In this document: positions 56,482 through 64,000 of the stretch, piece after piece
How the letters are laid out: each line of letters starts with the position of its first letter
How positions within the stretch are numbered: the first letter of the stretch is position 1
Notes under the pieces: generated by a model
What the model saw: only the letters and a program-made list of their open reading frames with translations
The model's database searches: none
Told to the model about the DNA's origin: nothing
Assembly (NCBI GenBank): GCA_022563535.1
Contig: JADFNE010000023.1
Span: forward strand, 1-64,000
Source of the DNA: Myxococcales bacterium
GTDB lineage: Bacteria; Myxococcota_A; UBA9160; UBA4427
Length of the DNA: 64,000 bases
Direction of reading: 5' to 3'
Made by a program: the position numbers and the translations under genes

Positions 56482-56497
56482 CGCTAGACGGCAAGTG

Positions 56498-56524
56498 GGT
56501 GCCGGGGGCGCGACTCCCGGCACC
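56498..56524. terminator. Stem-loop between comEA-like gene and btuF-like gene
   Basis: GGTGCCGGG (56498-56506) and CCCGGCACC (56516-56524) form a perfect 9-bp stem with a 9-base loop. On the + strand it is followed by TCATTTCC, a weak T-run, so termination after the comEA-like gene is possible. Confidence 0.45.
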
Positions 56525-56569
56525 TCATTTCCGGGTACCATTGCGCCGCAAATTTTCGCGCAACTGGAA

Positions 56570-57583
56570 ATGCATGACCCCGTGATCTCTTTTACCGAAA
56601 CGATCCTTATCCAAGCTAGTCGACCCGGGCGACCCGGGTTGTCGTCGGGCGGTGGATCGGTCTACCGACTTGGGGTTGCTTGGCTGCTCCTCACCTCGAT
56701 CCTCTTCACCACCGTAGTCACCAACGCCCACGCGGTCAAAGCGACGCCAACGCATCATGCCATCCGGGTGATTTCGCTCAACCCATCCCTTACCGCAATC
56801 TTGCTCGCCATTGGCAAGGGGGATCAACTCGTGGGGGTCGATGATTTTTCTGCCAAGCAAATTCCCGCGGTTGCGGATTTGCCGCGGGTCGGAGGGCTGT
56901 TCAATCCGAGTCTCGAGGCCGTAGTGGCCCTCGAACCCGACCTGGTCGTATTGGTGCCGAGCGCCGAACAACGCGACTTTCGCATGCGGTTGCAAGAACT
57001 GAAGATTGAAGTCGAGAGCTTTCAAAATTTTCAATTTGCCGAGGTGCTGGAGAACATCACCCGTTTGGGAAAACTTCTGGGCGCCGAGCAAGCGGCCGCC
57101 GAGCGCGTCGCGGCGATCCAACTCACCCGCGCGGCGGTTGAACGAGTCGTCGCGAGCCTGGTGGGCAAAGGCCAGGCGCGACCCACCGTCGCGGTGGTGG
57201 TACAGCGCGACCCACTCTTCGTGGTGGGGGGCGAAAACTTCATCGACTCCATGCTGCAGATCGCGGGCACGCAAAACATCGCGGCCCACTACAGCGAACC
57301 GTACCCGCGAATCGGCATGGAGTGGATGGTCGCGGCCTCGCCACAATTGTTGCTCGACCTCAGCCCCGGGTCCCGAGAAGCGAAGTCGTTCTGGCAGCGC
57401 TGGCCCCATATTGCGGCAGTGAAGAACGATCGGCTCATCTCTCTCGATGCGGCACTGATCTCGATGCCGGGTCCCGATCTCGACAGCTCGCTGCGCCTGC
57501 TGGCGAGCACGATCTGGGGTGACGAGATCTTGAGCCGCATTCGCCTCGAAGAAGCCGCGCTCGCCCGGGAACGGGGTCGCTGA
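56570..57583 (+). CDS. BtuF-type periplasmic substrate-binding protein
   Basis: Soluble receptor of a FecCD/BtuCD-type importer, 337 residues from the ATG at 56570. A signal/anchor segment (VAWLLLTSILFTTVVTNAHA) precedes VISLNPSLTAILLAIG, the conserved start of the first lobe, and LEPDLVVLV follows. The second lobe includes FVVGGENFIDSMLQIAG, typical of corrinoid and siderophore receptors. Ligand: cobalamin/corrinoid, haem or siderophore cannot be told apart here. TGATG overlap with the permease gene. No cobalamin riboswitch was recognised upstream. Confidence 0.82.
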   Translation: MHDPVISFTETILIQASRPGRPGLSSGGGSVYRLGVAWLLLTSILFTTVVTNAHAVKATPTHHAIRVISLNPSLTAILLAIGKGDQLVGVDDFSAKQIPAVADLPRVGGLFNPSLEAVVALEPDLVVLVPSAEQRDFRMRLQELKIEVESFQNFQFAEVLENITRLGKLLGAEQAAAERVAAIQLTRAAVERVVASLVGKGQARPTVAVVVQRDPLFVVGGENFIDSMLQIAGTQNIAAHYSEPYPRIGMEWMVAASPQLLLDLSPGSREAKSFWQRWPHIAAVKNDRLISLDAALISMPGPDLDSSLRLLASTIWGDEILSRIRLEEAALARERGR

Positions 57584-58602
57584 TGCTGCTGACCCGCAGG
57601 CGATACGTCAGCGTGCTCCTTTCCATGTTGCTGCTCCTGATTGCGAGCAGCTGGTGCTCCCTGCTCTTTGGACCGAGTGAACTTGCGCCCGGGGAGGTAT
57701 GGAAGGTGCTGTTCGAAGCCGGGGATTCCGGGGCCGCGGGTGACATTGTATTGCGTATCCGCCTGCCGCGAACGGTGCTTGCGCTGCTCGTCGGGGCATC
57801 GCTCTCGGTGTCGGGGGTTGTCTTTCAAGCGCTGCTGCGAAACCCCCTTGCGGATCCCTTTGTGCTGGGGGTTTCGGGCGGTGCCGCGCTCGGGGGAATC
57901 GTCGCCCTCACGATCGGGAGCGCCATGGGATTTGGCTATGCGGTCGTTCCCCCGGCGGCTTTTGCAGGGGCGCTACTCACGACAGCACTTCTATACCTGA
58001 TCGCCGGTGCCGGAAACCACGTGTCGGCCAACAGCCTGTTGCTCACGGGAGTTGTGTTCAACGCTTTTGCATCCGCCGCAATCGTATTTCTGGCATCGAT
58101 CGCAGGACTCACGGAAAGTTCGCGCATCTTCTTGTGGTTGATTGGGAACCTCTCCGCCGCCCGCAGCGACGTTGCGCCTTGGGTCGCGGTGTTTCTGATG
58201 CTGGGCCTCGCGAGTTCCGGGGCCCTCGCCCGCAGCTTGAATTTGTTGATTCTGGGCGACGAGCCGGCGGAACAACTGGGTGTTCCGACCGAACTCCACA
58301 AACGGATCTTGTTGCTCGCGACGTCCCTGATGGTCGGCGCCGCGGTTTCGGTGGCGGGGCTGGTGGGTTTCGTGGGCTTGATCATTCCGCATCTATTGCG
58401 CCTGTGCTTCGGCCCCGACCACCGACTCTTGATCCCGGCGGCGGCGCTCGGCGGCGGCGCGTTTCTGGTGATTTGCGACACGGTCGCGAGGACGATGTTG
58501 GGGGGCCGAGAGCTTCCGGTTGGCGCCATCACGGCACTGGTGGGTGGCCCGCTGTTCCTGTTTCTCTTGCGCCGTCAGCATCAACGGATCTTCGCCCCAT
58601 GA
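57583..58602 (+). CDS. FecCD/BtuC-type ABC permease
   Basis: Integral membrane subunit of the importer, 339 residues with about ten hydrophobic helices. RLPRTVLALLVGASLSVSG near residue 63 and NPLADPFVLGVSGGAALG near 87 are diagnostic, and GFVGLIIPHLLRL near 263 is the loop that couples to the ATPase. Overlaps its neighbours on both sides by a few bases. Confidence 0.92.
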   Translation: MLLTRRRYVSVLLSMLLLLIASSWCSLLFGPSELAPGEVWKVLFEAGDSGAAGDIVLRIRLPRTVLALLVGASLSVSGVVFQALLRNPLADPFVLGVSGGAALGGIVALTIGSAMGFGYAVVPPAAFAGALLTTALLYLIAGAGNHVSANSLLLTGVVFNAFASAAIVFLASIAGLTESSRIFLWLIGNLSAARSDVAPWVAVFLMLGLASSGALARSLNLLILGDEPAEQLGVPTELHKRILLLATSLMVGAAVSVAGLVGFVGLIIPHLLRLCFGPDHRLLIPAAALGGGAFLVICDTVARTMLGGRELPVGAITALVGGPLFLFLLRRQHQRIFAP

Positions 58603-59429
58603 CGCAATCAAGTCCGCAACGGCACTTGCAATCCAGAACCCTGTCCTTCCACTCCGTGTGCGTGGAGTTTGGCAAGCGGCGCGTCCTCGACGACGTCAGC
58701 TTCGAAGTCAACCCCGGCGAAATCGTCGGACTCGTGGGTCATAATGGATCGGGCAAGACGACTCTGGTCAGACTCGCAACTCGGGTGTTGGCACCGCTGT
58801 CGGGGAGTGTCGCGCTGGGGGGGCGGCCGATTGGCGAGTTTTCCCGGGCCGAACTCGCGCGTTCTCTCGCCACGGTGCCCCAGGACACGACGCTCCCATA
58901 TCCCTTCACGGCACTCGAAGTCGTGCTGATGGGGCGCGCGCCCCATCAGCCACTGTTGGGACTCGACCGGCCGAGCGATATTGCCCTGGCGAGGTCCGTG
59001 CTCGAGCGACTCGACATTCAGGATCTGGCCGAGCAATCGATCCTCACGCTTTCGGGGGGCGAGCGACAGCTCGTCATGTTTGCCCGGGCGCTCGCCCAGG
59101 AGCCCGAGATTTTGTTGCTCGACGAACCCACGGCCTTTCTCGATCTGCGTCATCGGATCGATCTTCTCACCGCTGTTCGCGAGCGGGTGGACAACGGCGG
59201 CTCCGCATTGGTGATCTCCCACGATCTCGATCTGGTCGCCCGGGTGTCGGACAGGCTGATTCTGCTGGCCGAGGGCCGCATTGCCGCGCAGGGTCGGCCG
59301 AGCGAAGTACTCGACCCCGCCGTGCTCGAGCGGGCCTTTGGGATCGAAGCGGATGTCGTTCGAGCACCCGACGGGTCGCCATTGGTCGTACCCCGTCTAG
59401 CCGGCGCGGCCCGACCCCCGACTCGTTAG
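58599..59429 (+). CDS. ABC transporter ATP-binding protein (BtuD/FecE type)
   Basis: ATPase of the importer, 276 residues. Walker A GHNGSGKTT near residue 46, Q-loop near VPQDTTLPY, signature LSGGERQ near 151, Walker B ILLLDEPTAFLD near 171 and the H-loop VISHDLDL near 206. The open frame extends upstream but the ATG at 58599, overlapping the permease stop (ATGA), is the right start. Confidence 0.93.
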   Translation: MTQSSPQRHLQSRTLSFHSVCVEFGKRRVLDDVSFEVNPGEIVGLVGHNGSGKTTLVRLATRVLAPLSGSVALGGRPIGEFSRAELARSLATVPQDTTLPYPFTALEVVLMGRAPHQPLLGLDRPSDIALARSVLERLDIQDLAEQSILTLSGGERQLVMFARALAQEPEILLLDEPTAFLDLRHRIDLLTAVRERVDNGGSALVISHDLDLVARVSDRLILLAEGRIAAQGRPSEVLDPAVLERAFGIEADVVRAPDGSPLVVPRLAGAARPPTR

Positions 59430-63116: not shown

Positions 63117-63187
63117 TTTATTCTGTCTACCCGCATGCATCTCGACCTGCACCTGAATTTGAATCCAGTTGGCGTCCGTCAGTTACA

Positions 63188-63445
63188 GTACGCCTGCTCA
63201 ACGATCCCAAGCTTCGCTATGACCTTAAATCCGGATATATTGCGCAGATCATTCCGCTGAGCGAACACCACCTGCAAAAGGCCGTGAAAGAGAATCCGGA
63301 GCATTGCCACTATGAGCGAAATCACCAGGGATCCGACAACCAGCTGATCGTGAAGGCAATTGACGAACTCAATATGGTGGGTGCCGTCGACAGTAGAGAG
63401 AGACTCGGAGGTAACTTTACTTACTACCATCGGAGGGCCGCGTAG
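63188..63445 (+). pseudogene. Transposase remnant (integrase-core C-terminus)
   Basis: An open frame ending at TAG 63443-63445 translates to a segment with ERNHQGSDNQLI, followed by DSRERLGG and YYHRRAA at the end. This is the C-terminal end of integrase-core (DDE) transposases, which commonly have HYHRERNHQG and RRERLGG...YY. The catalytic core is missing and there is no proper start, so it is a decayed fragment. It begins about 70 bases past tRNA-Ala. Confidence 0.7.
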
Positions 63446-63455
63446 ACCGTGGGTC

Positions 63456-63821
63456 CTACTTCATCATCATTCCCATCATTCCGCCGCACATCATTTTCGG
63501 CATGCCCCGCATCATTTTGTGCATCTGCCGTCGCTGCGCGACCAATACCGTCAACAGCTCCTCCATCGCGGCCATCTTCTCCGCGCCATCAGCGGCTCGC
63601 ATCCGCCCGACCAACTCATCGACCGCCTCGTTCGTGGTCTCCATATCCTCCATTTCCATCTTCCCCATCATCTGCATACACGTCTCCATCTGGGGCGACT
63701 CCCCCATTTTCATCATTCCCATTCCCATCTTCCCACGCTCCATCGTCGACTCTTGGCTCCAGACGGTCGCTGTGAAAAAGAGCGCCAAAACGAGTGTCAT
63801 TCCCGTGATCGTTCGCTTCAT
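63456..63821 (-). CDS. Methionine-rich exported protein, likely metal binding
   Basis: A 121-residue protein with a signal peptide (MTLVLALFFTATVWSQ). The mature part is extremely rich in methionine: clusters MGMGMMKMGE near residue 34 and MRGMPKMMCGGMMGMMMK at the C-terminus, with a single-helix middle region (DELVGRMRAADGAEKM). Met clusters of this kind bind copper(I) or silver in other exported proteins. The ATG has a perfect AAGGAGAG site. The promoter upstream has MerR-type geometry, in line with metal control. Specific metal and function are inference. Confidence 0.85.
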   Translation of the reverse strand: MKRTITGMTLVLALFFTATVWSQESTMERGKMGMGMMKMGESPQMETCMQMMGKMEMEDMETTNEAVDELVGRMRAADGAEKMAAMEELLTVLVAQRRQMHKMMRGMPKMMCGGMMGMMMK

Positions 63822-63857
63822 CGTGTTCTCTCCTTATTGTGGGTAGCGTTGGATTTT

Positions 63858-63888
63858 GCATTACCTTCATTCGTAGGTATCATGTCAA
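63858..63888 (-). promoter_or_regulatory. MerR/CueR-type promoter of the Met-rich gene
   Basis: On the minus strand, TTGACA (63888-63883), a 19-base spacer and TAATGC (63863-63858). Inside the spacer is a dyad TACCT...AGGTA (63879-63862). A 19-bp spacer with a centred dyad is the hallmark of promoters activated by MerR-family metal sensors. It lies about 37 bases upstream of the start codon. Confidence 0.65.
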
Positions 63889-64000
63889 CATGCGCAGGGA
63901 GTCGGCCGCCGAGGCGATGATCCGCTTATGATGAGGTTGAGGCCCTTTCGGAATCGCACGATGATTCGGGCACCCCAGTAGCAAATTGCTCATTGGAATG

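Follow-up and report, generated by a model that had tools for sequence, protein, structure and literature searches.

A methionine-rich, predicted exported protein of a Myxococcales bacterium belongs to an unnamed family often encoded beside copper genes

The window, by which we mean the whole 64,000-nucleotide stretch analysed, covers bases 1–64000 of a 65,914-base contig in a Myxococcales genome of 4.63 Mb and 147 contigs. Close to its end, on the minus strand, lies the gene of a small methionine-rich protein, P0001, preceded by a ribosome-binding site and a promoter-like pair of hexamers (Table 1). Methionine accounts for 29 of the 121 residues and for 27 of the 99 past the predicted signal peptide; in a comparison of the 355 open frames of at least 90 amino acids in the window, the methionine fraction of P0001 (23%) was the highest, against a mean of 1.1%. 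By eye, the start resembles a signal peptide, with a basic n-region, a hydrophobic stretch and V-W-S ahead of Q, and the predicted layout runs from MKRTITGMTLVLALFFTATVWS through QESTMERGKMGMGMMKMG to a final GGMMGMMMK. Two cysteines (Cys48 and Cys110) and one histidine follow the predicted signal peptide. The initial annotation had described a signal peptide with dense methionine clusters and, upstream, TTGACA, a 19-bp spacer holding a TACCT/AGGTA dyad, and TAATGC, and the anatomy is as it described. The pair of TTGACA (63888–63883) and TAATGC (63863–63858) with its 19-nt spacer occurs once in the window, and the arms of the TACCT-N8-AGGTA dyad lie at 63879–63862, the right arm running into the -10 hexamer. 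A His-rich plus-strand frame at 63360–63920 was rejected as the mirror of the methionine codons, ATG being read as CAT.

Table 1. Features of the P0001 gene and its upstream region (window coordinates).
Feature	Position	Strand	Basis
P0001 gene, 121 codons, Met-rich predicted exported protein of an unnamed family	63456..63821	-	ORF; profile score
Predicted signal peptide MKRTITGMTLVLALFFTATVWS, cut before Q23	63756..63821	-	by eye only
P0001 family core, residues about 60–100 (METTNEAVDELVGRMRAADGAEKMAAMEELLTVLVAQRRQM)	63522..63644	-	alignment of family; predicted helical hairpin
C-terminal Met/Cys-rich tail (HKMMRGMPKMMCGGMMGMMMK)	63459..63521	-	sequence and alignment
Ribosome-binding site AAGGAG, 8 nt 5' of the P0001 ATG	63830..63835	-	direct reading
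Putative promoter-like TTGACA-N19-TAATGC	63858..63888	-	direct reading
Imperfect dyad TACCTACGA/ATGAAGGTA, 6/9 pairs, centre 12 bp past the -35 box	63862..63879	.	dyad measurement

Upstream on the same strand stand an alpha/beta-hydrolase gene and, beyond it, a multi-haem cytochrome-like gene. The latter lies past the window (L005:10135-10914; contig 65134–65913), adjoins the hydrolase gene upstream, is truncated at its 5' end and carries seven CxxCH motifs. P0001 could be encoded at the end of an operon shared with these two, the promoter-like pair then being incidental. All three genes are on the minus strand with gaps of 8 bp (cytochrome to hydrolase) and 104 bp (hydrolase to P0001), and the within-window part of the 104-bp gap holds no minus-strand terminator. 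On the other hand, a full TTGACA sits inside this gap, the P0001 gene has a strong ribosome-binding site of its own, and the start of any such operon is out of sight because the contig ends within the cytochrome gene; we regard this arrangement as rather unlikely. Elsewhere in the window, an open plus-strand stretch lacking a clear start (63170–63445, just past a tRNA-Ala gene) has 72% DNA identity to G000:C92:7104-7253 and appears to be part of a mobile or decayed gene. Genes for a periplasmic-binding protein, a permease and an ATPase at 56495–59429 have the look of a B12/haem-type ABC importer and are unrelated to P0001.

The promoter had been said to have the geometry needed for MerR-family activation, and of this geometry the spacer length fits, its 19 bp falling within the 19–20 bp range of MerR-regulated promoters. 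MerR proteins kink DNA at the palindrome centre (PMC9909328), and the position of the dyad centre, which we counted from where the -35 box ends, therefore matters. In the putative P0001 promoter the best dyad, TACCT/AGGTA, has its centre at 12 bp and so misses the required position by 4 bp. The measured centres are at 7–8 bp in the Tn21 merT and the Escherichia coli copA, zntA and soxS promoters, and the merR/merC-like operator that this genome itself carries on contig C52 has 9/11 pairs centred at 8 bp. That operator belongs to a mercury-type locus (L009; G000:C52, about 25.1 kb) with a metal-type MerR gene encoding three cysteines, a thioredoxin-like gene and a MerC-like gene divergent from the MerR gene, the textbook operator with its 20-bp spacer lying at L009:1823-1854.

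Nor is a dyad of this quality especially distinctive. Among random 25-mers generated at the local composition 5.7% contain a perfect dyad with 5-bp arms, among the window's real 25-mers 9.9% do, and 2 of the 13 TTGACA-like/19–20/TA pairs in the window contain one. The dyad score alone is weak evidence, since the real dyad of merT is equalled in score by a chance one at 12 bp. A genome scan for the promoter layout originally described gave 7 sites, against 24 for a reversed-pattern control.

Could a MerR-family activator, either CueR-like or the genome's own MerR, nevertheless turn on a metal sponge through the spacer dyad? TTGACA, the 19-bp spacer and a dyad are all there, and a weaker dyad does occupy the canonical 8-bp centre, though its 6/11 pairing is matched by 3% of random sites. 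The pattern TTGACNTNNNACCTA has only two occurrences in the genome, the putative P0001 promoter and the C52 merR operator; since these very sites defined the pattern and chance alone would supply about one match, the sharing is only suggestive. Published metal MerR sites have arms of 7–9 bp, and CueR sites read ACCTTCCC-(5)-TGGAAGGT (PMC1526738), against the 5-bp arms of the off-centre dyad overlapping the -10 box here. The initial annotation had proposed looking upstream for a CueR/MerR gene; the P0001 contig has no MerR gene, and among the five MerR-domain proteins of the genome none reaches the cut-off of the CueR model, the single metal-type one (C52) having MerR as its best model yet scoring under the cut-off. 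The upstream regions of relatives show no clear or strong MerR-type sites, and MerR genes close to relatives are essentially absent, with one weak match. The MerR-type promoter as first described is thus not supported, and we consider activation through this dyad very unlikely; the promoter-like pair may instead start transcription in the ordinary way, as a promoter that is weak or under some other regulation.

The initial annotation recognised no named family, and neither did the libraries: searched alone, P0001 had no family match in Pfam, NCBIfam or the PDB, with nothing above a curated cut-off in the first two, and no family member matched Pfam at E 0.001. Literature searches returned no described family matching that of P0001. 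Candidates set aside were NCBIfam TrbJ and LolA3 (scores far under cut-off), IcmG and sll1863 (few members with weak E-values, apparently compositional) and a PDB profile match to 8r5v at E 0.043, which is not credible. A survey of homologues, as had been suggested, uncovered a family spread across phyla. P0001 by itself found no match in a first scan of genome contigs; the first relative, from a genome of the same order (30% identity, E 6.5e-5), led to a second, P0003. The three-sequence alignment then gave six loci, two of them coinciding with P0002 and P0003, in Acidobacteria, Verrucomicrobia/Limisphaerales and Deltaproteobacteria-labelled MAGs. Profile searches were positive in 25 of 396 genomes from the phylum to which the Acidobacteria locus L031 belongs and in 6 of 379 from that of the window, the weakest matches in these counts being unconfirmed. 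On reading their ORFs, the weak matches L021 and L025 proved spurious, and L062 and L102 were left out. A tblastn search of plasmids with three family queries gave no match.

The family comprises, besides P0001, P0002, P0003, L026–L031 and L066–L091. Its members share a core of about LDxLVxxMNxAxGxxKxDAxAAVxxELVxQRxxM, the best conserved part of the alignment, with a signal-peptide-like start and with flanks in which methionine and, in most members, cysteine recur. By sequence comparison P0001 belongs to it, with a profile match exceeding composition: a profile of 31 relatives excluding P0001, themselves collected through a seed alignment containing it, gave P0001 47.0 bits, and none of 5000 composition-matched shuffles of the mature part exceeded 14.8. 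An earlier six-sequence profile lacking P0001 gave 21.7 against a maximum of 14.1 in 2000 shuffles, and the genome-wide profile match to P0001 had E 5.8e-25 with a model that includes it. P0001 has the common core, the Met/Cys-rich flanks and the signal-peptide-like start, but is shorter than the rest of the family, has a shortened C-terminal tail (many relatives have a longer counterpart, ending in CPMMK) and lacks copper genes nearby.

Copper genes do accompany many of the relatives. The 231 neighbours scanned included 9 E1-E2 ATPases, 6 multicopper oxidases, 7 YHS, 7 HMBD, 4 AcrB-type pumps and 3 DUF302 proteins. By tblastn at E < 1e-20, 15 of 34 loci had an ATPase, multicopper oxidase or CusA match within a few kb, and at E < 1e-5, 21 of 34 had any of six classes, some query proteins having come from the same relatives' loci; the P-type ATPases matched at L085 and L090 count only as candidate copper ATPases. 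None of nine control stretches, which came from the window's own genome and not from those of the relatives, had any such match. At L027, L028, L030 and L031 a DUF302 gene lies within about 1 kb 3' of the P0003-type member, and some of these loci also encode a small Met/Gly-rich membrane protein (MGGGMWIWTVIGVLVVVLLVVV). Given such neighbourhoods, members of the family are likely to bind Cu(I)/Ag(I) in the periplasm, and P0001 may plausibly do so too. No copper-gene probe matched within the 11 kb surrounding P0001, so its own copper link comes solely by way of relatives that share about 30% identity with it. Of the copper- or silver-induced metal sponge first proposed, the copper/silver link has therefore gained ground, through relatives standing beside ATPases, oxidases, CusA-type pumps, YHS/HMBD and DUF302 genes, whereas the MerR-type switch is not supported.

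The AlphaFold model of P0001 is weak (mean pLDDT 57), placing helices at residues 43–76 and 79–120, and the predicted helical hairpin is confident only over residues about 61–100 (pLDDT about 76–82). A member from the same taxonomic family (G007, L100:1450-1782, minus strand) has the core with hardly any Met tail, which suggests, from this comparison, that core and tails evolve separately; metal binding may accordingly not be universal in the family. One might then see the conserved core as what does the work, a small helper in the periplasm that binds a partner protein, with the methionine runs secondary, scavenging oxidants or under low constraint. The strong conservation of the core and the G007 member both point this way. 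Methionine nevertheless makes up about 11–20% of the matched segment in nearly all of 32 relatives (7% in one), and many relatives lie near copper genes; we judge this alternative unlikely.

The explanation we favour, with moderate confidence, is that P0001 is a secreted or periplasmic helical protein with metal-binding Met/Cys-rich flanks. In this view the conserved core would form a helical hairpin, and thioethers in the flanks would probably coordinate Cu(I), as well as Ag(I); the bound metal could be buffered or passed to efflux or oxidase partners, which are encoded next door in many relatives, the P0001 gene standing apart. The family context strengthens the reading of an exported, probably soft-metal-binding protein. 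As a tentative extension, this cross-phylum family may be a standard accessory of soil-bacterial copper-efflux islands, with the helical core, itself not metal-binding, docking a pump, oxidase or ATPase and the flanks passing Cu(I) on.

What is known of copper and silver buffering in the periplasm comes chiefly from a few enterobacterial proteins (SilE, PcoE and CusF). If our explanation holds, a family with its own core, found repeatedly next to copper pumps and oxidases in several uncultured soil phyla, would extend this list, and the core offers a usable signature for genes unnamed in every library. The family, which none of the searched libraries names, would then belong to a known kind, that of periplasmic copper/silver-binding proteins.

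Among known systems, the putative P0001 promoter resembles CueR/MerR-type promoters (copA, cueO, merT and zntA) in its TTGAC-type -35, 19-bp spacer and inverted repeat within the spacer, and differs in a dyad centred at 12 rather than 7–8 bp, with 5-bp arms and overlap of the -10. The protein itself is best set beside SilE and PcoE, which are encoded in the sil and pco operons and act as sponges for Ag(I)/Cu(I) in the periplasm. These have ten conserved histidines, with methionine, in His/Met motifs (PMC5008109), whereas the part of P0001 past its predicted signal peptide contains one His, 27 Met and 2 Cys, and its conserved core differs from theirs; because of that single histidine we do not assign it to SilE/PcoE. 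SilE and PcoE are helical when metal-loaded, and their genes sit with Cus-type (CusA) pumps and P-type ATPases, as do those of many relatives of P0001, though not its own. Like them, P0001 is small, predicted to be exported and helical, and rich in soft-metal ligand side chains, and by this analogy it may work as they do.
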